Origin: Owenia fusiformis
Taxonomy: Eukaryota > Annelida > Polychaeta > Sabellida > Oweniidae
NCBI GenBank assembly: GCA_903813345.2
Contig: CAIIXF020000001.1
Location: 8,836,598-8,900,597 of the forward strand
DNA length: 64,000 nt
Direction: 5' to 3'
In this document: positions 38,565-60,600 of the stretch, one piece after another
Position numbering within the stretch: position 1 is the first letter of the stretch
How the letters are laid out: each line of letters starts with the position of its first letter
The notes under the pieces: model-generated
The model's input: the letters and a program-made list of their open reading frames with translations, nothing else
The model's database searches: none
What the model was told of the DNA's origin: nothing
Program-made: the position numbers and the translations under genes

Positions 38565-39658
38565 TCATACTATGAAGTCAGATCCTTTGTTGAGATTATT
38601 AAGGCTATCTACACCACTGTCCAACCCATTGTCTGATGGTGTCGTGGTTGTGTCACTGGCAGCCTCTCTGGTACCATTCTCTATTAAAACCACTACAAGG
38701 TCACTAAGACCTTTTTTGGGTGTACCTGCTGGGGTACCTAAATCATATTTATACTTTCTCCAGAACTTCTGGATCTTCTTTGCAGCATTGATCTCAACCT
38801 GTCGGTTCAACGTAGTGCTTATCTGCTCATACCCTTCTACATCAGGGACTATTACAGGAACATCTTCTATGTTATCTAGCTCAATCTCCCCTGTGCCAAG
38901 ATAGTCCTTTGTTAATGCATCTAGGATGTCCTTGCAGTACACTCTATCCTCTGTACATATTGGAATATTCAGTGTTACCACTTTATAAAAGTTTGGAATG
39001 GGTTTGCGTAAAGGTTCATCTAAAGCATCTACAAAGTCACAGAGCTGATCTAAATGTATAAAGTGAGTGGCTTCTGGGTCAAACTTTTCCCATGTCTCAT
39101 AGTAAAGATCAAAATCCTCGCCAGTTAATCCTTTCTGAACATCCTCAGTTGCTTGGCTGAAATTCTCCAGAATAACAGCAATGTACATATTCACAATTAC
39201 AAGAAAGTTCAAAATAAGATAGCTGAGGAGATAAGCTACAGCCATTCCACGATTTCCACAATTAGGTGGTACACCATCAATTTCCTCTGTTGTACAGTCC
39301 TCTTCGTTTCCGATCCCTTCTAGGATTGAATTCCAACCTGCTGAAGTGGAAATTTGGAATAGAATTACCATCCCATTCCCCATTGTCTGGAAGTTGAATA
39401 TTTCATCAATTCCCGCATGATACTTGACGTGCATGAAAAAGTTCATACCAAATATGGAATATATGAACATAACTAAGAAAAGTAGTAATCCAATGTTGAT
39501 TAAAGCAGGTAAGGATACAAGTAGCGAGAATAATAAAGTCCTTATTCCTTTAGCTCCCTTTACTAGACGCAGGACACGACCTACACGGGCTATACGCACT
39601 ACTCTTAATAATGTTGGGGAGACGAAGTACTTGGCGATTATATCAGCAAGAAACAAAG
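38565..39658 (-). CDS. Nav1: Nav1 last exon: DIV S3 end to C-terminus
   Basis: 1094 nt after an ATTTCAG acceptor. Contains DIV S4 ([20 protein letters not shown], with Arg/Lys every third residue), S5, the pore loop with TSAGW giving the A of DEKA, S6 ([14 protein letters not shown]), an acidic EF-hand-like stretch ([11 protein letters not shown]) and the IQ motif that binds calmodulin in relatives. It ends ...SDFIV-stop, a hydrophobic C-terminus that could act as a class II PDZ ligand (inference). In the DIV pore the residue three after A is Asn, where vertebrate and insect channels have Asp. Confidence 0.95.
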
Positions 39659-42600
39659 CTGAAATACAGAAATAAATAATTAAAATGATGTTATGTATAA
39701 CATATCTTAGAGTGTGCAATTTTAGAATTTATACCATTTCATAATAATTAATAATGATTCTCTTTAACAAGATATACACATTGTCTTGTCAATGGATTTT
39801 TTCTTGGATTTAAAAATCATAAGTAGCTAATGCTATGCCTACCTAAAATTGACACAATAACAATGATGAAGTCAAATACATTCCAAGGGCTTTTAAAATA
39901 GTGCTGCCTTAGTCCAAACAATTTCAGCACACACTCCATGGTAAATACCACGATGAAGACTGCGTTGATCCAGTAGAGAATGTTGGAGTAAGAATCTGGC
40001 TGGTCATAGTATTCGCATGCCATCAGAACCATGTTTAACATGATGATGGCCATAATTGCGATGTCAAATTTCTGATCCATTACAAAGTCAAATATAGCAG
40101 CTTGGGGTCTCCACTGAAATGAACAATAAAGTGTTTATAATACATTATTGTTGATTGAAAATAAGGTGCTTAGATACTTTAAAACAACCCATTTGCTAAT
40201 ATTATGATTAATTTTGTTGTATCTTTGAATTTATAATGATTTATTAATTGTTATTTGACTTATTTTCACTTCAAAATATGCTTTCCATGGTAGCTAATTA
40301 GGAAAATATCAGATATTACACCATGAACAAAATGCAAGTAGTATGCATTCTAAAGGTGAAATGTATGTGTTATCTTCAGATGCAGAGTGTAAAAATATGT
40401 ACCTTAGGTCTTGGAACAGGTTTCTGTGGTTTTTGGGAGCCCATCTTTTTCATGGCCTGGTAATACCTCCTTTGCTCCTCTGTCATGAAGATCTCCATTC
40501 CTCCTTCGTACAAAAACAAAAGCAACAGTAAGGATCTAACCAACATAAAATGCAGCAGCATGGTTGGTTGATTGATAGAACATGTATTTAGGCTACATCA
40601 AAACATGCTTGTTTTTTGTGAGAGTGTTTTAATAGTCTATGAGTTGATAGAATTAATGTCATCATATAATATATTGATATTATGATATTACCTCATATTA
40701 CAGTGTACAAGGTTTACCGTTTAGCAGTTTAACATTGGTAAACTTTTAATTTATTAATTTCATGAGAGCAAAATGATATCTAATTATATTTAGTCTTTAG
40801 AAAAATAACCAACATGCTTTTAATGGTGTCATAAAAATGTTAATATAATGCAGCAAAATGTCTAGGTTATTTTCTACGCTATGAAAGTATTTCAATCTTA
40901 AATTTTAAAAAATGCTTAACTTCTTTGAAAACTGATTTGTTTGAATTATTTAAAGGAAGAAAATAATTGTTCATTGGTGCGTTCTACCTGGTTGTCACTC
41001 TAAGATCTTGTTTGAATGGGATATGAATGAAATCAATCCATCTGTACAGGACAACTATTCAGAATAAAGGAGGATAACGTTTTTTATTCTCAATTGTCGA
41101 TACCTGACACAATGGCTTCTGAGGCAATCATAATGTTTATGTAGAAGGTGTTGCTTTTATATTTTGTCATTTCTTGGTCAGTGGGGTAATGTATGATGAT
41201 CTCATATCCTGATTGTTTCAATCTTTTTTATTAATCATTTTGGTCTCCTTAAGTTATGATTGATAGAATACAATTTTCAGAATTAACAAAAAAACACTTG
41301 CTTCGGTTTCAGCAACTTTAACATTTTGGAATCACTTTGGAAGTTTACCTTCATTTTATAATTATGTGCAAAATAATTTGATTAGTAGAAATAAAATCAT
41401 AGTATAGCGCTACCCTAATGCAAGCAAACTTAACTTGCTTTCAGATCCATACTGTATTTTCATTTTAAGCATGAAGGGGTTTCCCTGGAATACTAGGAAT
41501 AAATGTGATAAAAATGTGGGAAGTTCTGGTCTCAAGTATATATTGAAATAGTATTGAAAATAGTGCTAGTTATTTAGTTTAAACATCACATGGCATTTGC
41601 AAGCGTATCGATCGGAAAATATTTTGATCAATTGCAATCGTGCAATTATTAATTGAAAGCAGAAAATATTGTGCAGAAAACCAGCCATGCATGTCATACC
41701 TTACAAAATAAAACATTTACAGAATTAGCATCTCCACTGAAAATAAATCAACATATAGTACAAACAGTACATTTAGTTATGTCCTCTGAGGAACCAAGTC
41801 TGATTAGATAGAAGGAAGAATGGATAGTGTGAAATAGAGAAGAAGAATGAATACTGTATTCTCTGTAATTAGCACCCAGGGCGCTTAGGAAATTGAAAAA
41901 AATATTCTTCAGACCATTCTCATAAGCGCCCATATACACTGTATGAAAGAAGTCAAAAATCCCCAATAACTTCATGAATGGCAATTTTTCTTGACAAGAA
42001 TCCCGGGGGGTTCACTGTATGCAAACCTTGACAGGGATCCTTGGCACACATGGAGTACCTTTTTAGCTCATTTGACATTTGGTATGGCAATGGGCCAAAA
42101 TTTTAGGATCTAGCCCCCAAATTATACTTTTAAGGCATGGCAATGGTCAGATTGTAAAACATCAGAAACATCAGTGCTGGAAATTACAATTAATAAGTCA
42201 TTAAACATCATAAATAAATTGATAATCTCTGATGTTATTTTCAAACTTTATAAGTCTCTTCAAAATTGGGAGTCAAATTGTGATGATATTTTGTATTTAT
42301 CAGCTTATTATTAAAGGGGCATTACATTGTCAAAATTATTTGAATTTTGTCAGGAATGAATGAGTATGTTCAATTATTCAATTATTGAGTTTGTATATTT
42401 TACCATCTTTCGTGGATTACAATATGGCGACCAACGTCGACATGTCATCACACTTCCTTGATGCAAAATGGCTCCATCAACTACTCAGTGGGTCAATTGA
42501 TATTATTCTTTTCAATATAATGACTTGACCTAATTATTTTTTTAAAAAGTTTTAGTTTTATTTCCTCAATTACACATAAATCTACTTATAAATTGAACAG

Positions 42601-45600
42601 AGAGCCAGCCATTAGTTTTGCACCTGGTCATTCCTCAATTTCTTGAACTTTTGTGAAGCGGGGTAGAAGCTTATTAGGGAATGGGCGCTAATTTCAGAGA
42701 AAACGGTAACTTTCATTTATTTCCTTAAGCAATTTCCCGAAGTAATTAGATCATAATGTGAGACTTTTGCAAATTTAAGATAAGCCGAAAGGCTAGACTG
42801 TCATTTTTGCTTTTCCATGATTAACAATCACAAACTACTCAAGTACTAGCATGGGTTCAAGCATAATGATTTCCAATATAAATTGGACATTTCAAGTAAA
42901 GAAATAAACAAATTAACCACTCATAATCTACCCTGATCACTCCCTGTAAACTATATCTACCTTTTTTCCAACTGTCTACATTTACCACCCCTATTCACCC
43001 TGACCACATCCTTTCTACCCTAATCATTTCACACATATTCAGACTACTCCCCTGTCTACCCTGACCATCCCTGTCTACTTTCACCACACCCTGTCTACCC
43101 TGACCCTCCCCTGTATACTCTAATCACTCCATTTCTATCCTGACCACTCCCTATGCCCCCTGACCATTCCCTCACCTGCAAATGTTAAGCAACATCAACA
43201 ATTGTTCTGAACCTATAGCAGAATGTTCACACCGAAAATGAAGTCAAACAATGACATCGAATTATAATATTACTAAAGGATACTGAGATGGATATCAACA
43301 TGGAATACTGATTCTTACAGTAATATACATCATCTACAGAGAGAACAACAGTGCACTATAGGTCAAATAGAAACAGTAAGTAAATAAATACTTATCTTTG
43401 ATTTCTGGGCATTGAAGTTATCAATGACAACACCAATGAACAAGTTCAGAGTGAAGAAAGAGCCGAAGATGATGAATATGACAAAGTAGAGGTACATAAA
43501 AACCCTCTCCTCTCTTTTTGGTTGCAACTCAAGGGCTGGATCCTAAAAAATACGATGACACATATTTGACATTGTTTGTGTAACAAAATAGTGGTGTTTA
43601 AAATTGGTAACTCATAATTATAAATTCTTGAAATCTGTTCAGATTAAAATGATGTAATTATGCTGCAATATACTTTCAGAATTCCTAAAAGAAGCATTAC
43701 ATTGCAGTGATGCATGACAATCACCAGACAATTACTGAATGTTATTGGAATTGAAAAGGCATGCATGCTTCATTTGCAGTAAGTATCGTACAATGTACTT
43801 ACACCTCTGCTGTCTATTGCATCATTCATCACCTCTATCCACCCTTTAAATGTAGCCTGAAATTGAAAGCACATGATATACTTCTTAGCCTCAGTGAACA
43901 TACATAATTCCAAAGCAATCAAGTATACATTTAGAGTGTCACTATCGTTGCATATATGCCCCAGGTTTTCAGTGATATATGGCCCGACCTTGGGAGGGAC
44001 ATTGATCACTGAGAACCGAGGGCATATGTGCAACGATATTGAAGCGAATACCAACCGATCTACTGGAGATAAAACTAACCGATCAACTGAAGATAACCTA
44101 ATTGAGCAATTTTTCTTAACACACAACTTTACCAAATTTGGACACAAATTTATCAATAAACACGATTCGCCAATAAAGGATGGGTATCGATATGGCGAAC
44201 TTTTTGAACACACGTTTCTCTTAAACCAGTCATCAAAAAATTCTGAAAATTTTACACAGTGTCAATTTAATGGTCATCTTTTGAATGGAAGCAACATAAT
44301 TTGAAATAGATATATATACTTTTCTTTATATTGTTTTAGAAAACACATTTGTTCTTGGTATCATATGTTCGGTATGAAATGAAACATCTATCCGAATCTC
44401 ATTGGAACAAATTGACATAAACACAACATGATTATGTCTCTCAATATTGTAATTATACAAAGGAAAGTTTGGTTGATCTAAAAAAAGTATCTTGTTAATG
44501 AAATAAAAGGTTTATCTTAGTTTTTTTATTTCGGGGGTTTTTGTTTTAATTTTTTGAATACTTTTTGTTCAATCAACCAAAATTTCCTTTGTACAACTAT
44601 AATACATGTATTGGGAAGTCTAAAAAAATGTTGTTAATGCTATTTTGTTCAAACAAGCTTCGGAAAGATATTTTATTTCATTCTCAAGAAATGGTAAAAA
44701 GGAACAAAAACAAAAAAACAATTGCACTAAATTTCAAAAAATGTTAACAAAAACAGTTATATCGCATTAAATTGTTGTCAATTAGTCAACATTACATAAA
44801 GGATCCTTTATATGAAATTATTTGTGATTAAAATAATTGTCGAAACCTCTGGCGAAATCCATTTTTGTTTGTTTTTGAATTCGGCAGGAATAAAAGTACC
44901 CGGATGTTGGGAAAGTAGTCCCAGCACTTTACCAATCAGAGAGTTACTGGGTGCGGACTTTTCAAACGTTATATTGGCCCTCTGTCTAGTGTACAGTTTA
45001 CACTATACATCATCATAGGTATGTTATAATACTTTATATGTAATATCTCTTATGTGTTTTTTTTAATATTTGCCAATTTATTCAAGGGTAGAATAAATGA
45101 TTAATATTACATGTGACATATACAGATTCATGAATATAGTGTTCATTTGGGATTTTCTACTCTGTGGAGTTGTGGTCTGTTTGACATGTATAAACTCTAT
45201 GTATAAAGTCCCCCATACTCCCCTTCAGTTATCCCTATAATTATTATGTAATATTAAATGCTTTGAATCTTGAATAAAAACACATACCACTTGAAACAGG
45301 GAGAGATATGCATTGAAAACATGGTCAAAGTTGACCTTTGAGTTCACCCAGGTATAGTTGAGCTCTTTGTTGGTTGCATTGTCACATTCTGTTCTGTTTG
45401 CAACAATATCAGTCGTGAGTTTGTTGCCCTCTGCATCCACGCACTTGTAGAATTGGCCTAAAGAAAAGCACAATATAAATCACTCAAGAGTAATAATACA
45501 TGTAATCACAAATATTATGCTATCTTTAAAATAATTAAAACAATATTTTGAATAGATATACAAATTATGACTAGTATTTTAACATTTCTGAATGCATGGT

Positions 45601-48600
45601 GAAGTGAAACATAATCAGAGTTATCAACCCCCATGCAGTGTAGCAGCACTTTCCTTTAAAAAGATAACATACTAAAGGATGTAGTGAAGTATCAACATAT
45701 CACATACAGAATAAATAAAGTTTAGAGTTCTACAGAAACTAGATCTTAGCAAATAGCACTATATTGTGTTTACTTTAGCATAATTTATTTAATATGATAA
45801 AACATATGGTTACCATTATGATGTCATTTTATCTAGATGAAATATATATTCTTGAACTAAGATAGAAATTATGATTTCATGCGGTGATATGAGTTAATAC
45901 GTTGAAGGCAATTAAGTTCATATCTTCTAGTCTACTGCTTAATACTATTTTTCTTATAAAGCCAAAACAAGATTTAGTCCTCATAAGTCATAGGTCTTCA
46001 TTATTATAATGAACTACAGCTACTATACTGTGCATTACAACTACACTAAACTATACAGTATATTTAAAGCCATACTAATATACTATCATGAATTCTATGT
46101 GTGTGTTTTGAACTGATAACTAAGATCTTTGGAAACAAATAAACACTCTGTAATATCTATTTTCATTGAGTGGAGAAAAGTTGTTAATTTGTTCTACATA
46201 ATTCATGGAATTATAGAAAAATGTGTGTCCATAATAATTCAGGTTTAATAAATACTCTTCTAACTTTTATTCATTTTTCCATATAGATAGTATTATTAAA
46301 TTATTTATACTTTGCTATTCGTTTATGTCAATTCTAATCATTAGAATTATACCTCCAAACAGTTGACAGCCCATTATGGCTCCTATTAGCCACATTACTA
46401 GGATGACAAAGCCCACATTGCAAATGGCTGGGATTGCACGGAATAAGGCATTAACAATAATCTGCAAGCAAAGCATGCCAGGCAAAACATAAAAAGCAAA
46501 CCTTTAAACTTGAACAAGCACATATGGGTCCATGAAATAAATCCAAATAGAGAACCTGGGTAGATCTCTGTGGAATTCATGATGGCTCTGTCATTTGTTC
46601 AAAAACAAACATATACACTGGACAGTAGACACTGTATTTAACAACCAATCCCTCTGTTTTAGTGTAAAACCTAAAGACATTACTAAGACAACAAGGCACA
46701 CAAATTATGATTTTAAGCTGCAAATTATAACACATTGTATACCTAAAATAACCAAAGCTAAAATATTAAATATTAATATAAAATGAGGATTAATATATAA
46801 ATGAGGATTATGACAAAGTACTATATAATTACATGTAAGTATAAACATTTTTTTGAATACCCCTAGTCCGTGTATGAGAATATGAATCTTCAATTTAGTT
46901 TATTAAAAATTTCTCAGAGAGTGTTAATGGGTCCATCAATGTTTTCAGATTAGTCAAAAAGGATTGTAAGCTAAATACTATACTCATCGAACCAGGCTGT
47001 GTATTGAATTATAATTGTACAAGAAATGCATTATGTAACAGAGGATGTTTCACCATGAATTGTTTCACATTTGTTTGAAGATTCATATTTTTCCTGTGTT
47101 TTGTGCAGACTATAGGTGACTAGAATAACATACTAGCAGTTGTGCCTTGTTTAAACTGCATCTGTAGATTCTAACAAACAAAAACATGTCTACACACATC
47201 AAGTAAATTGTAATACCCTTCAGTAGCATAACACCAATTATCGCCATAACTAACCAAAACATCAGAATAATGCCACCAACATTAGCGATAGCAGGTACAG
47301 CTTTCACAAGCGAAGTCACTACTCTCTAAAATTGCATCATTTAAAAATAATATTCAACAAAATGCAACAACATGCTTTTGTTAATGTATAGCCTTTTGCC
47401 AATCTTGCAATATATCTATCCATATCCATTGGATTTCATGTTGGTCATGGTTGTTTCACTCAGTAATATCTTAATGAAATAGCTGCCCTTGCCAGTACAA
47501 TTTTTCCAATGACCACTCTCGGTTGACTACTCAAATTCTATGACTCTGTAGTTAGAATACTTTTGTATTTGACCAAGGGAAAAATCAATACCCGGTGATT
47601 CCAGCGGGAACTGGCGTTTCGTTCAGTGGATGACCTGCGCGCGCACACATTGATGTGATTATCCAATATTATTTTGGGATGGATATTCAAGCTTATTTTC
47701 GTCACAGGCGTGACCCGGGGCTGTCAACTTAAGGACATTTCGTTGAAAATGAGCCATTCGGCTGATAATTGGTAAGAGTTTGTGATCTTATAATGTATAA
47801 CTGTCACTCAGATACATATTTTGACACTCTTCTGTTGGAAACAAGCTTTGAACCGAGCGAGAGATATTCACGATTGATATGCACATTTTTGATTGTGCCA
47901 TTGCTTTTCCATTGCACAATCCATGTATTGATAGAAGAAACAATAATGAAGATTTTTTACTTTCAATACATGGCGGATTCACTACCTATCGGTCTATTAA
48001 ATACTATTTTGTGCCCTAAATAGTTTTATATTTCCATCCACGGCCTGGAGCCTGGGTGTGTTTGTCTCTTATGTGTATGCTTGTGGATTGGTGGGGCTGG
48101 TAAGGCCACCCCTGGCCCCGTCCATCCTTTATTATCCCATCGAACGAAGTTCGGAGGGATATAGGGAACGCCTCCGTCCGTCCGGGCAATAACTCAAATA
48201 CCGTTGGCCCGATTTTATTCATATTTTGTACACATATACTCTATGGGGATAGAAGTTCTTTTTGGCCTTTACTCGTTATTTTACGATTTTTGCTGTAACT
48301 CGAAAAGTAGTGGAGCGATTTTGTTCATATTTGGTATGTGAATACTATAGGCATGGCGCACTGTCTAATGACACTTTTGGTAGAAGGCGGACATTTAGAA
48401 AAATGGCGGACATTTTGAAAAATGGCGGACATTTTGAAAAATGGCCGCCATTTTAACTTATTTTACTATAACTTGAAAAGTAGTGGAGCGATTTTGTTCA
48501 TATTTGGTATGTGAATACTGTAAGCATGGCACACTGTCTAATGACACTTTTGGTAGAAGGCGGCCATTTTTCAAAATGGCCGCCATTTTAACGTTTTTTA

Positions 48601-51600
48601 CTATAACTCGAAAAGTAGTGGAGCGATTTTGTTCATATTTGGTATGTGAATATTATAAGCATGGCACACTGTCTAATGACACTTTTGGTAGAAGGTGCCC
48701 GTTTCGAAAAATGTTCGATGGGATTCGCTATGCTTTGGCGTTGCCGTTGTTCTGGTTCTACTTCCCACTTACTCAAGTCTCTAGCCAATTACCGGAATTT
48801 CCAGAGGGCTTGGAAGAAGATAACTTTCCCACCCTCAAACCTCAACCTCCATCAAAATCAGGTTATAACATTATATGATATACAGCAAGAAGTCTGGTAG
48901 AAATATAAAATATTTAAACATCAAAGCTGAAAGTTAAGAAGTTTCTGTCTGCAAAAGAACGTTTACAATTGACACAATAAAAGACTGGGGCTTTGAAACC
49001 CAGGAAAATATGACGTCATACTAATTAACATAAGGAATTCCCCATCGGCTTGGGTCGAACATCATGCGAAAACACAAACCGATAAATAGTGCTAATATCT
49101 CAAGAGATAGGAAGTGTATAACAGATTTATCGATTTTATTTGAAGATTTAATCAATTATCAAGTTAATTAAATGGATAAAGTGGTCACACTTGCTTCAAT
49201 TCATAGCGTAATCAACGGAAAGAAACTGCACCCAAATTCCATATCCCACCCCTTATTACTACAGCCTAATAAGCGCAGTGGCCTGCAGAGGGTACGATCA
49301 CAAACATGTACTGCATGAACCCATTAAATCCCGGGTATTGTAACGCCCTTGATTTGACTAACCAATTTCTTTCTTTAAGATGTAGAAACATGACCAACAT
49401 GACATTTATGAGAATAACATTTTTCTATATTGGGGGCTGCTGTTTAACACTCTGCCTTACACCTGTACTAACATTCAACACCAGGTTGACAATATACAAC
49501 CACACTATGATGCTTACATGTCAGAAAGTTGCCTTTTATAGCTCTGAAATAAAATATTGAAAAATATAATCGAAATATAAAAAAGGTTTAAAATATGGAT
49601 CAAAAAACATGTAATCTTCGCACCACAAAACAATGCTGTATACGAAAGCCATAACCATGCTATGTGTAAATAGTAACGCCACTTATCCAATAATGTAATG
49701 TTGGGACAACACACCATGCAGACAGGGGGTTGTGTAGCATATATACCCACCTTGGAAGAGGTTCACACCCATTATAGCTATGATGAGCCAGAACACTAAG
49801 ATGACTAACATTACATTACTGATAGCCGGGATGGCCCCAATCAAAGCATTCACTACTACCTACAGAAAAACAAACCAAAACATCTACAAAATGTGACATA
49901 TGACATCATCTCCTCCAAGCTGTGAATGTGTTAATTATTGTGATCTTTGAGGAAACTATTGGAGATTATTTTTTCTTGATTTAGTGTCATAAATGATTTT
50001 CATGGATAAATTGATTTTATACAATTTGATTCTAATGTTAGTGAACTATTTAATAGCTGAAAATATCAAAGTGATGATTAATTCATGTGATGCTGATCTG
50101 TGGTCATGCCTCGATCCCATGTGACTAGGTGACAGGTGTCAAATGTGGCCTATAGATGTCCTACCAGCAAACAGCTGAACCCCCATGATGGACAAGATAA
50201 GCCAAAACATAGTTATCACTGCAACTACATTCAATATAGGGGGCGTACTTCTAACTAGTCCTAACACAACCACCTGTAACAGGGTACATACATCATACAC
50301 ATAGCTAGCTACAGTCAGTCCTAAAATAAAGAGATTGGGGGGGGGGGTATCCATGTCCATGGAAGAGTTGGATCTACCTAGAGGACGTAGGGCTCAACCT
50401 GAAATAATAATTATTACAATGTGATGCATTAGACTATGTCTATGTTGGTGATGTAACTTTTGAGGCATTAATGTAAAATGAATGGTAAATGATTTAAGGT
50501 AAGATTAAATCCATATTTGAAAGGCAACATACCTTCATTCCCTCCCATCTTGATACTGCCCTAAGAGGCCTTAATGCACGTAAGGTTCTAAGTGCCTTGA
50601 ATGCACCTATCTTTCCTGCTCCTATCATCTCTGCTACTAAGCCAACTATGGATATCTGAAAAACATTGATTTGCATTAACAGAAATATACTCCTCAAAAA
50701 TATTTAAGGACCAGTCTTTTTCCTCATGTCTGTTTGACCTCTTATTTTCAAAGCCTGAAACAAAAGAAAAACTGATAATGTAAATGGATATGTACCTTGA
50801 CTCTATTCTCTGTATTTCAGAAAATTTGGGTTGGGTTGCCAAAAGTCATATAAGAAAATATCAATCAATTTCAATTGCTCTCAAAAATGGAATGTAAATA
50901 GACAATTGAATTTGCTAACTGTCTACAACAAAAATTGATTTGTTTCTCCAGGTTTTACAAAGTTATGAGTCTCAAAAGTCAATATCATTTCTCATAAAAC
51001 CTCTCATTGAAATAACACAGGGTGTCAAAATGAGTTGTCAAAAATATGTTGATGCTCTATATCGGTAATTCTCACAAAGTAAGCTTAACAAAAAGCATGC
51101 TCAAAGTAAAACAATTCAATTGTCTACTCAGAAATTAGTTTTGATAAATGTTTTTACCGAATACATATCCAAAAATCTGATTTGCCCCTAACCCACCATT
51201 TCCCATTGGTTAACATGGGTTCTGCAATTTTTTTGAAATTCCTCAACTTTGACATCAATTGTTGACCGGACCTATTGTAATAGAGAGATTAAATTGAAAA
51301 ATCCCTGAAATATAGAGAATAGGGTCAAGGTACATATCCATTTACATTATCAGTTTTTCTTTGGTTTCAGGCTTAGAAAATAAAGTTTAAAGATACATAA
51401 GGTTTAACATGTAAACCTTAACTTTTTTTAAGGAGTATATTGTTGCGTTTCTTTAAAGTTTTTAGTCATCCTTCCCTTTTGGCATTTGTGCTTATATATT
51501 CATTGATATTGTACTACTTGATTTTTTTAGTTCGCTAAAATGTTCTTTTTTCTTTGTTAATTTTTTACCCTCTGTGTTTCTGAATGTAATGTTGAAGTAT

Positions 51601-54600
51601 TTCAAATCAAATGTTTTCAATATATATATTTAGTACATACTGCTACAATAACAAAGTCCAACCAGCACCAGGCATCAGTGAAGTACTTCTTGTAGCCATA
51701 AGCGACCCACTTGAGTAACATCTCAAGAATGAATATGATAGTGAAAATTTTGTCCATTATATAAAGAGTGGTTTGTAGCCAGGGCCTATTAACTAGATGT
51801 ATATCTTCAATTGCCTGGAATAAAGATATTTATTATGCAATTAATGCATACTGTACATTTAATAACATTTAATGCTATAACATAAAATATAGAGCAAGGA
51901 TGTCCATTTGAAAATTAATATTGCTTGCAAGAGTAAAATTCTTTTAGATTTTGAAGGGGTTATCTTATATGAACAAGTGGTTATGTGCATGCACTATTGA
52001 GTCAAATCTTTTCTAGGTGTTGTAATATGTTGAATTCTTTATGCTTTGAATCCAAATTTATACAGGTTTTACACAAACACATCAAGAATACTCACCAAAG
52101 CTAGACTGGATAGTAAAATCATAACAATGATAAATGTTTCAAAGTAATTGTTTTCAACCAGCCAGTAAGAGAACACACGTGCCTTCCAGTATTTCTGACC
52201 GATTGGAGTTGATGTGCATGTTTGACAAAATATAAATTTGTCATAACAACCAGGACACCAGCAATCAAATGGGTCTTTGTCCTCTTCTATCTCTGTTTCT
52301 TCCTTGTTAGTGCCATCAGCCTCATCATCTGTCTTAAGTTTAGTATCCTCATTAACCGACAGATCATTAGAAGTATTATCTCCATCATGTTTAGAATCAG
52401 AACCATCTTCAATTTCAATTTTTGTTGACTTCTCAGATACTCTATCTATATCATTTTGCATAGCCTCATTGTTTTCATCATCTATTGCTATTGCATGTTT
52501 GTTTTGCATAATGATTCCATTTACATCATTCAAGCTTTTCTGTGAAGAGCTTTTGTCTCTGCTCTGTGGAAGCAGTGTTTTTGTGTCTTCATTTCCATCT
52601 GTTTCAATTTCACTAGATTTTAAAGACTTTGTCGGACTTTTATGTCCATTTGTTCCATTCTCAATACACTCATTATCACTAGCACCATCTGGGTCACCCC
52701 TCTCTAATCCATTCATCTCAATAGTTTCACTTCTCAATGCCTTCACATTGTTTGGTTCTCTTTTCAATATTAACACACATATACTATACATAATACCATA
52801 TTTTATTTTTGAGCCAACCCATTTAAACCTGTCGATGGCTTCAGCTATTTTATTTGGTTCATCATCATCATCATCTTGTTTTTGCAAACTGTCTGCTCCG
52901 AATGAGCTCAGTAACAAAGCCAGAAACAGATTCAGCACCTAAAATAAAATGATAAGGTTGTTCTAAAGCTCCAATTACAAAAAGGCCAATGTTTCACATA
53001 GGAATTTTGAAATATCCCAAGATTCAGTTTTAACATGGTCTGTGATTAAGAAAATGTTGATGTGTTCTTTTATATTACTACTTTTTATCTAGTTTGTGTA
53101 GTAATGTGAATGTAACTCTTTTATAGAGGCAAATGAATTATACGTACATCCTACATAAACATTCAAATAGTTTGTCTATCAATTAACTTATTTTATTATT
53201 TGTTTGGTACTCATCTTATAATTAGATGCAATGTCTTACCACTAGATTTCCTAATATGACTGTCAGCATAAAGAATGGCACACACATTGCACCAGCTACG
53301 ATCATGCAATCCCACATTGATTCTATCCATTCCCCACACAAAACACGGAACACAATCATAAATGAGTGGAAGAAGTCATGCATATGCCAACGGGGCTTTT
53401 GATCTAAGCCTAGGCGATGGTAGTTCAGTTCGTAATATTGTCCAAACAACTGCATTCCCATGACAGCAAATATGAAGATAAGAATTCCAACAACAAAGGT
53501 CAAGTTCCCAAGGGCACCCAATGTCCTTCCAATTATTCCAAGCAGTAAATTCAATGTTGGCCAGGACTTAGCCAGCTTCAACACCCTCATCTGAAAATTT
53601 ACATTATCATATTACAATAATTAAGCCCTGAGTAAACAAGTGCATTATAAATGTTGATTTTTGAACATTGTCAAGGAAATGCTCAGAAGTATGCACTCAT
53701 TTTTGCCAAGTATACATTAATATTCCACTTGTACATTATCATTTGAAGACTAATGTGATTTACATTCAATTGCTGTTAATTGACATCTGATGATGCTGAA
53801 AACTCGCTGAAAACTCGTACTGAACATCAAATAATTAATTAGGAAATATATTTACCAGACGAAATGACCTGAGTATAGACAATCCTTTTACATTTGCTAA
53901 TCCCAACTCCACTAATGACAGAGTAACTATAGTAAAGTCAAATTTATTCCAGGTATCCTTGAAGTAAAGTTTGGGGCCTAACGCAACCAACTTAATCACA
54001 GCCTCAGCAGTAAACACAGTGGTGAAGAACTGAAAATTCAAATTAGGAACTTATAATGCTGAAAAACTGTTTACTACCAGTGTATCAATAGTAAATGCTC
54101 TATGCTTGTTCAATGATGCTAAAACACAATGAGCAACAGTGGAACAATACTTACATAGTTGCCAATTTGAAGTGTGTAAGCAAACTGTTCTGTCATACCA
54201 TGATGATCTGCAGCCATAAACGCTGTATTGGCAATGATACAAAGCAATACAAACAAGTCAACCCAGCAGTCAAATATGAAGATGTGGCATATCTCTGATA
54301 ACTTATACCAGCATGGGCAGCAGGTCCATGCACAGAATGTATCATTTAGCTTCTTCACTATGTATTCACCTCTAGTTAGTTCATCTTCCTCTTCGTCTGG
54401 CTCCTGTGGCAAACCTGATAAATAGAAAGTAAGGATCATTACTGAAAGCAGGTAGTGACACATTATATAGAACTGATCTATCAGTATTGTGTTTTTCAAA
54501 GTTTATTGTTTAAACACTCTTAATGAAGCTTACAGCATTTTCAATGTGATCAATGCATGAGTTAGGTTAGTAATCAAGTCAGTAGCTCACATAAATAAAT

Positions 54601-57600
54601 AAAAGGGAATAAAAGAGAGGCATGCATTACAAAGAAATGGCCATTGCTTACTTGTATGTTTGGCTTTAAAGAGAAAGTCTAGGTTTTCAGTTTTTGTACG
54701 ACCTTGCTGAGCATCAACCAACAGTGCAACAGTGCAGCTTCCTGTGAGAGTGCAGGTGCATACATGCATTACATGTGTTACCTAGCAACCTTTCCCAAAA
54801 CAACCATGGTGATCACCATTAGCACCACTCTTCTTACATACTATAATGCTATATATCTTTTACATTGTGAAACAGAAAGCTGGCTTGTTGGATTTATTGG
54901 TTGATATGTTGTTTCCTCCAATATAATACCATTTTAAACCTATTGTGCTTCGCATGATCACCATGACCTCTTTTGTTAAGGGTATGTGTTAGTAATTTGA
55001 TTTATTCTGCTTTTGTTATTATTTCTACATACAATTAAGTAAGTTTGTTAGTCATTCCTATGTAGCAAGAATAGATCTGGTATTAGTAAGGGCAATTATG
55101 AAGTAAAGGCAGAAGAGAAAGCAATACGAGAGAAGCAGGCTGTGTCATGCAGGAAATTCATGTTACTTACTTCGCATGGATGCAGCGGTTAATGATTCCA
55201 TCTCCATTGCATCAGGTTGAGCAAGCATAGCATCAAATGTATTGCTGTTCGATATATTTGAACTGGGCAACTTAAATTTCTTCTTCCAAGATTGGCGTTT
55301 CTTGACTGAGTTTGAGCGTGGTGGGTACATTTCCTGTACTTCTGGTGTGACTGCATTGGAGTCATCAGCAAATGGAAATGATAAAGTTGAAAGTCTCATA
55401 TTCTCTTGTAGATTCTTAGGCCTCAAGTTTGGTGAAGCAGGAAGACTGTTGACCTGGAATAAAATTTCAAAATCTAACGACAATGCAGAAGGATTTTAAT
55501 TGTTCACAAAAACAATGCTAACCCTGATACAAAAAAAGAATAATTGTATTATTTACCAGCTATAGACTATAGCTATAGCTTATTTACCAGCTATAGGTAT
55601 GGTCCAAATACATGTAGTGTCACAACAGAACAACAATAGCATTATAAAACATAATTGTAATAATGATAGTAAAAGTCATGATTATTGATGTTAATAATAT
55701 AAATGGTATATGATATAAATATTCAACTATACATATAATTGAAGAACTGTATGTTTACAATTATCCTACTAGCTAGACAAATACTATATTTTGCTGGCTA
55801 AAATCTTTACAATACATCCTCTGGTGTGAAAATTGTACAGGTGTATCTTTAATGTCTGGCTCTCATGCTGATTAGCTGTCCTCATAGGTACCTTATTTGG
55901 TGTTAAGTGCTTTCTTTGTTTAAGTCCCATTCCTGGACTTGATTTAGTACTTGGTGGCTGAGTGACGCTTAGTCTATCATCATCAGCTTCACATGCCTCA
56001 CCAGTATCTGGATCCTTGGCTTTCTCTAACTCTTCTTCAGCTTCAAGTTTCGCATCAGCAAGGTCTTGCTTACGAGCTGCCTCTTCCTAAAATACATTTG
56101 TGTTGTCATTGCCTGCTATGTTAGTATAAAGTTATTACAACATATTGGGGTACAACACAGTTATAAAATTAGTGACTTCGTATTTGAAACAGTATTTCAT
56201 TCATACACTGTTTCTAGTAAATTGTCCATAATCATTGTTGTTATTAAGCCTTTATCAGATACCCCAAAATATGATTTGTAAATACAACATCAATAAAATT
56301 ACAAATACAACATTTTTGATACTATGTCCTAAAGTATAGATGAGATATGTAAAAATCTCTAAAGGGTATGTAACTAGAAAAGATTTATTAAATTAATAAT
56401 TACATTCGATACTAATCTACTACTGAACATATTACACTTAAACAACTATCGAAATGTGTCATTAATTGACCCAAAAAGCAGTGCAATAGGAAAGACTTAT
56501 GGCTGTAAATCTGTGCAATTGGTTAATTGCAAAACTAGGAAATATAAAAATTGAAAAAGGTCAGAACTATATTGTCTATTATTCATGAACCTTTTTGCGT
56601 TGGCAACATGCATAGCAAAGTGGCTAATGAAATCATTTTTAATTTTCATTATCAAATTGATAGTATAAATAGTTGACCTGCAATCTCTTTTTAGATTTTA
56701 GTATCTGTAGGTACCATAATGTATTAGTTTAGTAGTAAAGTAATCTAAAAGGGTCCTCTAAAGTGTAACAACTCTTAAGTGATTCTATGGGGTATGATGC
56801 TAACACGTCTACCACACATGTGCAATAAAAGGTAGATTAATCTGTAGTTATATTTGTAGTATATGATTTAGGGCATAAGTTCTGGTGATTGTTGGTTTTG
56901 GTATTAGCTTGCCTGTAGAATGTGACAAGGTATCATGCATGAATATGTCTACTGAATGTTTCACTCTACAAATTTCACCTCTCTTTCACGTTTTTTTCTG
57001 TCATGACGCAACTGAATGTCAAAGAGCTAAAGAAGAAATGTTAAAATAAAAATAATATTGAACAAAAATGGATGATTTACTTCACCAACATTTTATAGTT
57101 AATGAGTATGGTGGCAAATTGTGCAATTTCAGCTGAAAAAATATAATCTAAATTTTGTATGTTATGGATGCTGTAAAACCAAATACAAAAAATGAAAAAA
57201 AAAAAATGGCTCAATAATCAATGTTGCATCCTCGGTCACGTTGAACAATCACCCTTGAACAAGATTTCGAGTTAAGGAATAGAAGAGCCCTCCACCTGTT
57301 TCTGATCTACATAAGATCTTTAAGGTAAGTAGGAGTATAAAGCAGCTGTAAGCTAATATAGCAGATGTCACTATGGTATAACCTATCAGCTAGGTGCAGC
57401 TGTTTATATTCAGCTCTCTGGCCAGTATGTGGCCCCACCTATATGCCCCTTACCCTCTCTTTCTTTTCCACTTGGTCCTACATTGAACGCATCTGTTATC
57501 ACCTTTATATACAGCTTAACTAATTTTATGTCTAATCCTGGACTAATAATTTATTTTAAAACAATCGAATTACATTAGATTTGAAAGATTTGCTTTTGAA

Positions 57601-60600
57601 AAGGTTGACTGTTAACTTTTACAATGTATATTTTGCAATATCTTTATATTTTAGGTTTTGTTTTTATTACTTGTTAGATGTCTTGTACACAGTGATGGCC
57701 CATACCTTTCTTTCTGCCTCTGCCTCCTCAATGTCAGCCTGTGTCTGTTTTTGCTGCTCATCATACGCCATGGCAACTATAGCCAGAATCAAGTTCAACA
57801 GGTAGTAGGAGCCAAGGAATAGCACCATGATGAAGAATAACATGTGCCAGGGACCCATTGATCTTATCACCTTAGATAATGATTGTATGATTTATTGAGA
57901 ATATTAAAGATGTAGTTAATTCAATCATGCTAGTCAAATCTACTGTTGAGGAAAATTATAAAAGCATATTTATTTAATAGTTTACCATCAGAGTGAATTG
58001 ATTATTGTACCATTTGATATACCTCTTTGTATAAATGTCCATTCTAGATGAGTGAAAAGAAGTTTGAAATAGTTACCAATTGATAAAGATTCTCCCAGAA
58101 GTCCTGTGTCATGAGGCGGAAAGAGGATAGGATTGCCCAGCCAAAGTTATCAAAACTTGTGAAACCATAATTAGGATTTTCACCAATATTGGAGACGCAT
58201 GTGTAGTTTTCTGGGCAGAGACTGAAAAAAGGTATAGTGCATAGATGTACATATGCATTATATTGTGAATCCATTGTTTGCCATTGTTGATATTTTGGAT
58301 TGGTTTCACTATCACAGCAGCAGGCCTGTCAACTTGGGAACACCTAACATGAGTGACTTGGAAATGTTGAACACCTCCCCTCAAAATGTGGACACCTTGG
58401 TCCAAATCTGAACACCTTGATCCAAATTTTGAACACCTTGGTTTCAATTTTATTACATCTTGCCAAATTTTGAACACCTCGCTACGCTCGCGTTTCAAAC
58501 ATCCATCAACGGGGGGGGGGGGGGGGGGGGGTTGGTACAATACGTTCGTATTTTTGCTGTGTAGACGATCTTTTTTAGAAAATTTTCTACAGAAATCTTT
58601 TTGCTTGACAATTACCAGGTAAAATGCGTATTTGCGTGACATTTTCTGTCACGCAAAAATAACTGGCGTGACTTCAAATTCTTCAGCAAATGCGTGACAA
58701 ATACGCAAATTGCGGGACAGTTGACAGGCCTGCAGCAGGCTAATTTTACAGTATATATAGGGAAACAACTCGCTAACTGGTCTGTTTATAATTCAATGAC
58801 CCAGTCCTTGAATGATGCACCCTGTAGCCCTAACTTTTTTGTGTTTCTTTTCTTTGTGTTTCTTTTATAATTTTTCTTCGATGTTTATATTGCTAATAAC
58901 TAAAGGCTCTAAATATCTGAGATAAGCGTCCTTGACTTACATGTTAGATTTGATATATCATAAAATTGTGTATGGTGACTGGTAGCTCAAATATGAAATT
59001 GTTCATGCTGCCACTTACTTTGATCCTGTGCTGTTGCCACAAAGGTAATATTTACCATTTGCAGTACCTGGAAGCCAGTTTGCTAAAAGGAAAAATACTT
59101 AAAATTACAATTATGGTAAATTCCACCCTTCTATTTGTCTTCCTGGCCAGCAATATTTATGCAGTCTTGTTAATATGTTAAAAGAGGTGGTCGCATTTTC
59201 TTAATGATATTCAATATTCTGTTATTTAGTAAGTGATAATAACCATGCATTCATTGATGGTTTTTGCAACTTTAATAAGGATCATGTTGCCTTCATGACT
59301 TTGACTTCATCATACACTTTTTTAAAGATAAGATCTTTTATTTTAAAGTACTACGATTCATTCATGAAATGCAGCTATAATCTTGTTTTCAATGTTATTT
59401 ATATAATTCATTAAGTGCAGAAAAGGGACTGAATGTCATTGCTTAGATATAACTTATTTGTAAACTGCAACTTAAGTTTTTTATACATATTAGTAGTTTG
59501 TGAAGCAAATACACTTACAGTCATTGCTTAGATATGATTTGTTAAGTTCAGCTATTTCTACAGTGTAGTTCAAGCCGAAGCTCCAATCTGGATGTTTTAC
59601 ACATTTACGAGTAAGACATCCCATGTAGACCTACAAAATAAATAAAAAATACCTGTATGAAATCATTATGTGCATACATAGCCAATCTAGTGACGAATTT
59701 TGTTACTCTAATATATTCAAATGACTTTATTTGATGGTCTTTGTTTTGTTATTTCCTAGGTTATTGTCTTCTCTAAACATAAATTATCCAATGTATTTTT
59801 GATTTATTTTGAAATTATCATACTTAGATTTTATTTTTAACCATAGTGGATGCAGAAATGACAGGACAATCATGTGCAGATAACTAACCTGTAGACCAAC
59901 TAAAGCAAAGATATAGAGGAAAAAGCAGGTGAGGATCATGACATCACGGAGACGTTGGACAGAGATGATTACAGCTTGGACAATAGTCTTCAGACCTGCA
60001 AAGTAAAGTAATTTTTATTATAACTATTAGTTACCTACAATATATAATATATAAGCACAAATGCCAAAAGGGAAGGGTGACTAAAAACTTTAAAGAAACC
60101 CAACAAGAAAAGCAAACTGTAAGTGTAAATCTGTCCTAAGAAAAGTAGACCCTATATATCCCAAAACCATGATCTATATGAAAAGAAACAATGTCTTAAA
60201 CATCCCCCTCCCCCCTCCAATCGAGAACCAATATCACAATCCAGGACCAGAACACCAAGGGACATTTCATTCATAATGAAGTCATTACAATACATGTTGA
60301 AGAAAAATTGAAAAAATGATTGCCAATACTCATAACATCAAAAATAGTTGTAGATACTAGTACTCATAAAAGATAGAGTATTCAGTCTCAAATGATGTGG
60401 GATAGATAAAATTCTGTCTCGAAGTCCATGGTCAGTTCAAAGGGTCAACATCCATTCACAAAGCCGTCATCATTATCCATAAAACACAACAATTCACAAT
60501 GGTCATCAGGAGAAAACTATGGCTGGTTTCGATCCCTATTTCTCAACCATTAATGCCATAGCCATCTGTAAGATGCTTATTCAATATGTGATTGCAAATG

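Follow-up and report, generated by a model that had tools for sequence, protein, structure and literature searches.

A Nav1-type sodium channel gene of the annelid Owenia fusiformis carries, within one 5.1-kb stretch, four homologous exons of 109 nucleotides (nt) that share one phase and each encode the S4-S5 linker plus S5 of domain III (DIII). The gene occupies positions 63201 to 38565 on the minus strand of the window, by which we mean the whole stretch of 64,000 nt analysed here (contig CAIIXF020000001.1 of assembly GCA_903813345.2, positions 8,836,598 to 8,900,597 of the forward strand; all coordinates below are those of the window). We term this gene NavA (annotated protein P0001) and the other Nav1 of the species NavB (P0200). 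We consider it fairly probable that the array is a cassette of tandem duplicates, used in a mutually exclusive manner, by which a second Nav1 gene retunes fast inactivation. The features on which this reading draws are:

38565..63201, minus strand: NavA, Nav1-type sodium channel gene, matched by P0001, partial model of 24 exons
50533..50655, minus strand: shared upstream exon, exon 17 of the P0001 model, DIII S3-S4, 41 codons, ending in ...RWEGMK
50165..50273, minus strand: copy 1 (v1), 36 residues, 109 nt, starting in phase 0 and ending after one base
49751..49859, minus strand: copy 2 (v2), 36 residues, nearest to an ordinary S5, best-scoring splice sites among the four
47217..47325, minus strand: copy 3 (v3), 36 residues, most derived copy, weak donor AGG/GTATTA
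46353..46461, minus strand: copy 4 (v4), 36 residues, the copy found in the annotated protein P0001
45288..45457, minus strand: shared downstream exon, start of the DIII S5-pore loop
40403..40507, minus strand: exon carrying IFMT, the motif of the fast-inactivation gate, which is the proposed partner of the S4-S5 residues differing among the copies

All four copies are preceded by AG and followed by GT, are open in the shared frame with stops in the other two, and end in a G that, once joined to the common downstream exon, makes up a Gly codon. The introns separating successive copies measure 305, 2425 and 755 nt. The four exons are homologous, lie side by side, agree in length and phase and share the same flanking exons. 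The initial annotation had described four open 109-nt exons with GT-AG sites that begin in phase 0, encode one and the same segment and are joined to a single upstream donor (50533) and a single downstream acceptor (45457); the exons are present in the sequence exactly as described, and the flanking exons 50655-50533 and 45457-45288 agree with the P0001 model. We scanned the window for duplicates by aligning each of the 24 exons without gaps to its six frames, with long exons taken as 45-residue pieces and tails of 4 to 41 residues omitted in six of them. The S5 exon scored 114 against copy 2, 94 against copy 3 and 88 against copy 1, where 20 shuffled queries reached no more than 33, and its next match was the DII S5 exon with a score of 64. 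It is the only one of the 24 scanned exons with intronic duplicates, the above-shuffle matches of the others being known exons of NavA. The ungapped six-frame scan of the window with the 24 exons thus recovered no fifth S5 copy and no other duplicated exon, and the 41-codon exon 50655-50533, the equivalent of the insect K/L exon, has no duplicate in the window and is single. No repeat family of at least 20 nt spans the flanks of two copies in the same register, which fits old duplications. Copies 2 and 3 are separated by a 2.4-kb intron that may owe part of its length to a mobile or satellite element: at 48190-48720 it contains a tandem-like repeat of 135 nt, the inverted arms of which are long.

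The frame logic of the array is strict. When the exons are joined by script, each single copy leaves the reading frame open through the next three exons, while omission of all copies leads to a stop 111 nt past the insertion point and inclusion of any two, three or all four leads to one at 117 or 150 nt past it. Hence, only single-copy inclusion can yield the channel protein. The earlier claim that inclusion of none or two copies shifts the frame agrees with the joined sequences, which meet a stop within 150 nt. The argument from length modulo 3 on which it was based is sound for none or two copies and needs a refinement for four, whose joint length is correct modulo 3 although a stop still precedes the return to frame.

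Between any two copies, 47-62% of the nucleotides and 17 to 24 of the 36 residues are identical. Differences are most frequent at third codon positions and least frequent at second positions (for v2 against v4, 12 at first, 4 at second and 25 at third positions). A purpose-written codon likelihood model, run on three topologies of the four copies, gave rough estimates of omega, the ratio of nonsynonymous to synonymous substitution rates (dN/dS), of 0.071-0.079 on the three topologies. Setting omega to 1 everywhere was worse by 31 log units, and setting it to 1 on a single tip was disfavored for v1, v3 and v4 (twice the log-likelihood difference, 2dlnL, of 3.99, 4.36 and 5.52, respectively). 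In neutral simulations started from v2 and run to the matching divergence, 855 (v1), 981 (v3) and 1105 (v4) of 4000 remained open, and the observed protein identity was reached in 0 of 4000 for each of these three copies. Taken together, these patterns indicate that the array is old and constrained, under purifying selection on the protein. A dN/dS near 1, named in the initial annotation as the outcome that would speak against functional copies, did not come out: omega is about 0.07 over the four-copy tree, and omega = 1 is disfavored on the tips of v1, v3 and v4 but not on that of v2. The accompanying argument that conservation of the frame and of core residues makes all copies functional is upheld as far as purifying selection goes; the donor of copy 3 is no better than an average GT.

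The identification of the gene as a sodium channel stands and can be refined to a second, divergent Nav1 of Owenia fusiformis. P0001, the top match of a hand-joined query with 95% identity over DIII-DIV, is an annotated Owenia fusiformis protein of 1788 residues that is marked partial and lacks the N-terminus; it matches the window exactly in 24 blocks, which leave out only the intron-split residues 214 and 235. The corresponding model has 24 exons and 23 junctions, all consistent with the P0001 translation (21 GT-AG and 2 AT-AC), and the D, E, K and A filter residues and the IFMT gate motif are legible in it by eye. The four domains, the DEKA filter, the IFM-type gate and best-scoring relatives that are Nav1 channels place NavA in the Nav1 group. 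In trees it falls within protostome Nav1, its long branch arising close to the base of either protostome or lophotrochozoan Nav1; NavA and NavB stand apart in free trees, and their forced grouping is not rejected (p 0.19, or 0.25 with three other annelids).

For comparison of the S5 segment we used 211 fetched proteins, a set rich in insect and oyster isoforms in which one fetch comprised the best 120 of 7981 matches; the protein database is clustered at 90% identity, and isoforms differing in 36 residues can be hidden in it. Each protein has one DIII S5. The 210 besides P0001 have an ordinary S5, in 24 distinct sequences, one of them shared by 147 proteins, the database protein of NavB likewise carrying an ordinary one. 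Position 1341 (residue numbers are those of human Nav1.5, set through chain 8vyj_A, with the exon covering 1322-1357) is Ile in all four copies and Cys in all 24 other distinct S5 sequences, including that of NavB. This shared C to I change suggests that the array grew inside the NavA paralog, where it probably had a single origin. The best S5 match reaches 29 of 36 residues for v2, 23 for v4, 22 for v1 and 19 for v3, and the residues absent from all 24 other S5s number 4, 7, 11 and 13 in the same order, as compared to at most 6 for each of the 24 when left out in turn; v3 has R at its first position and K at its last. In the same set, 14 of the 211 proteins, all from insects (P0005-P0015, P0018, P0037 and P0152), fuse the para K and L exons, which is probably an annotation error; these models contribute no additional distinct S5 sequence.

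The residues identical in all four copies include V1324, L1327, P1332, I1334, N1336, V1337, W1345, L1346, I1350, G1352 and L1355. N1325 is replaced by L in v1 and by T in v3, and A1326, constant in all 24 other S5s, by G and S, respectively, both residues being kept in v2 and v4. Further, v1 has S in place of A1330; S1333 gives way to P in v1 and to A in the other three copies; and at L1338 the residues are V (v1), M (v2) and G (v3 and v4). The published work cited here and below is represented by excerpts of each paper. In these, repeats III and IV are described as forming the IFM pocket with their S4-S5 linkers and S6, together with S5 of IV, and A1326 and G1329 as helping to build it; the long QT table lists N1325S, A1326S, G1329S, A1330P/T, P1332L, S1333Y, L1338V and A1357V, the change at 1326 being written A1326P in the text (PMC7212895). 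N1325S and A1330P are reported to shift DIII-sensor activation and to speed recovery from inactivation (PMC5339511). The S of v3 at 1326 and the V of v1 at 1338 are the very residues of the long QT changes A1326S and L1338V. Copies 1 and 3 are thus altered at residues linked to the IFM receptor, and retuned fast inactivation is accordingly our leading guess as to the function of the array.

We propose that one copy would be picked per transcript, by cell type or stage, and that messages with none or several copies would be cleared by nonsense-mediated decay, such that the frame would act as a filter added to the splicing choice. The varied S4-S5 linker would contribute to the pocket of the IFM gate and connect the DIII voltage sensor to the pore. 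Channels with v2 or v4, which keep N1325 and A1326, are then predicted to inactivate much like an ordinary Nav1, and those with v1 or v3, which alter N1325 and A1326 (v1 also A1330), to show weaker or faster-recovering inactivation and more persistent current.

Several observations weigh against a four-way cassette that retunes inactivation. By a splice matrix built from the 19 other GT-AG introns of NavA, and thus scored on its own training sites in a manner that flatters them, the acceptors of all four copies reach 1.0-5.5 as compared to 5.9-14.4 for the other sites of the gene, and the donors of v1 (5.1), v3 (-0.4) and v4 (3.3) lie below the 6.3-9.9 of its other donors. The v2 donor (6.4) is within that range, v2 being the best and v3 the worst of the copies. 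The v3 donor outranks 46% of all GT on its strand of the window, and copy 3 may be decaying. Weak splice sites are, however, common in regulated exons too. The one annotated protein seen, P0001, carries copy 4 only; the Owenia annotation was made with RNA sequencing (RNA-seq) via Mikado, Augustus and PASA (PMC9977687), and the presence of copy 4 in it may rest on RNA-seq reads. Selection is weakly supported on single branches, and on the v2 tip omega = 1 is not rejected (2dlnL 0.18); the branch lengths of the codon model hit their bounds through saturation, which leaves the omega values rough. The search for the array in related species suggested at the outset, run here on proteins, returned none: no v1-, v3- or v4-like S5 occurs in the other proteins of the 90%-clustered set of 211. 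With v1, v3 and v4 nearly alone as queries, for which a 36-residue match must be close, only P0001 was found at E ≤0.001 among 116 candidates, and with flanks included 118 of 328 candidates passed E 1. Finally, the copies are not enriched for variation at long QT positions: they vary at 7 of the 8 listed and at 17 of the 28 others, and the idea that their differences are concentrated at disease positions was rejected as not significant (Fisher p 0.16).

The alternative that we take most seriously, although we regard it as distinctly less probable than the four-copy cassette, is a smaller working switch in which two or three copies (e.g., v2 and v4) are used and v3, possibly also v1, is decaying yet open-looking. 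It is v3 that has the weakest donor, above 46% of GT on that strand, and the most changed protein, with 13 residues unseen in the 24 S5s as compared to 11 in v1 and at most 6 in any of those 24 when left out in turn. Decay of v3 is countered to a slight degree by its being still open at 56% nucleotide identity to v2, a weak point given that 981 of 4000 neutral runs stay open, and more so by a protein identity above all 4000 simulations and by the disfavoring of omega = 1 on its tip (2dlnL 4.36).

Two further readings appear improbable to us. The extra copies might serve mainly as an off switch, with skipping or double inclusion shifting the frame and silencing the channel in some cells. Every combination except one copy does meet a stop within 150 nt, and stop-bearing DIII exons provide precedents in BgNav G3 (PMC4309913) and SCN8A 18N (PMC13011093). 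However, an off switch needs one stop-bearing extra exon, whereas here three extra copies are open and encode constrained protein, and we think this reading unlikely. Still more doubtful is the possibility that copy 4, used in the annotated protein seen, is the sole real exon and the rest are relics of an ancient duplication event or of faulty assembly. Copies that diverge at 38-53% of nucleotides are not assembly duplicates, and the window is without N; an artefact of assembly or a recent duplication is ruled out by the 47-62% identity between copies. Moreover, neutral relics would not retain the observed protein pattern, and it is copy 2, not copy 4, that comes closest to ordinary Navs.

As regards the way in which a mutually exclusive cassette might be enforced, we considered several known devices. 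Steric exclusion via a very short intron is unlikely in view of the intron lengths between the copies given above. Spliceosome incompatibility was rejected, as no U12 signal is present at the copies: every copy donor is GT without a RTATCCTT start, the U12 donor motif used for this check. Pairing of docking and selector RNA of the Dscam type was not above chance in the one species available. For an upstream docking site, 11 of 30 shuffles were as good; for a downstream site, 0 of 30 were as good at first, a result that failed to hold in a larger run (9 of 150). We think it likely that regulatory proteins select among weak exons, the frame and decay serving as a filter.

Precedents for exclusive exons in this channel family come chiefly from insects and vertebrates. 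The insect para K/L exons and the cockroach BgNav G1/G2/G3 exons are, like the NavA array, alternative DIII exons of a Nav1 gene, theirs used one per message; Drosophila has C/D at DII S4-5 and K/L at DIII S3-4, the K/L choice sets the persistent current in the fly, and the cockroach has G1, G2 and a stop-bearing G3 (PMC4309913). The insect K/L exon ends in GMK/GMR, the same boundary as that of the NavA exon just upstream of the array. The array, in contrast, is the next exon, encoding the S4-S5 linker and S5, and has four open copies, whereas BgNav G3 has a stop; NavA is itself without a K/L-type duplicated DIII S3-S4 exon, the equivalent being single in the window. The insect C/D exons are a mutually exclusive pair in an S4-S5 segment, the kind of segment varied in NavA, but in domain II and with two copies (PMC4309913). 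In vertebrates, a 2026 review of SCN splicing describes exclusive pairs at DI and DIII S3-S4, and 5N/5A and 6N/6A (DI S3-S4) and SCN8A 18N/18A (DIII S3-S4) are likewise mutually exclusive Nav1 exons; they differ from NavA in their S3-S4 voltage-sensor site, their two copies and the stop in 18N (PMC13011093). Among spiralians, exons 5 and 7 of oyster CgNav1 are called likely mutually exclusive by their authors. Unlike the array, they lie in the I-II loop and encode 9 and 135 residues, and variant C is without both; oyster Nav1 also has an alternate exon in the II-III loop (PMC5295241).

Outside Nav1, the exon 15 or exon 31 pairs of invertebrate NALCN are mutually exclusive duplicates in a four-domain channel, the exon 15 pair being present in annelids and molluscs; they differ from NavA in altering the selectivity filter, in having two copies and in belonging to another gene family (PMC4436565). 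More than two exclusive copies, as proposed for the NavA array, are found in insect Dscam and in human clusters of 3 to 10 exons (PMC6071210, PMC5740500); Dscam is, however, not a channel, and its docking and selector RNA pairs were not found above chance in NavA.

Within the excerpts covered, no exclusive exon set of a Nav gene exceeds three copies, and those reported are confined to DI and DIII S3-S4, DII S4-S5 and the I-II loop. Within the portions of the open-access PubMed Central literature seen, we encountered neither an alternative DIII S5 exon in a sodium channel nor a report on NavA. What is new in NavA is the DIII S4-S5/S5 position and the four open copies; by comparison with these partial sources, exclusive exon switching in Nav genes would extend past the reported segments and past two or three copies. 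A single NavA cassette would let the worm swap part of the docking site of the inactivation gate. The varied positions include ones with the human long QT changes listed above, and four constrained natural versions would constitute a ready-made experiment on fast inactivation, recovery and persistent current.

In the remainder of the window, ten of the longer reading frames at positions 1-38000, downstream of NavA, were compared with Pfam without a match at E 0.01, and no Rfam family reached its gathering score anywhere in the window; neither test revealed a recognizable gene in that downstream part. NavA itself has two unusual introns on the minus strand. The first intron of its annotated part (62732-63082) is of the AT-AC kind, with the donor ATATCCTTT and TTCTTAAC near its 3' end, and has a U12-type look; we take it to resemble AT-AC intron 2 of vertebrate SCN genes. 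The intron at 40508-43395, between DIII S6 and the IFM exon, is also AT-AC, with the U2-like donor ATAAGT and the end TAC, and presumably resembles intron 21 of SCN4A. Both of these AT-AC introns may thus have been kept in an annelid.

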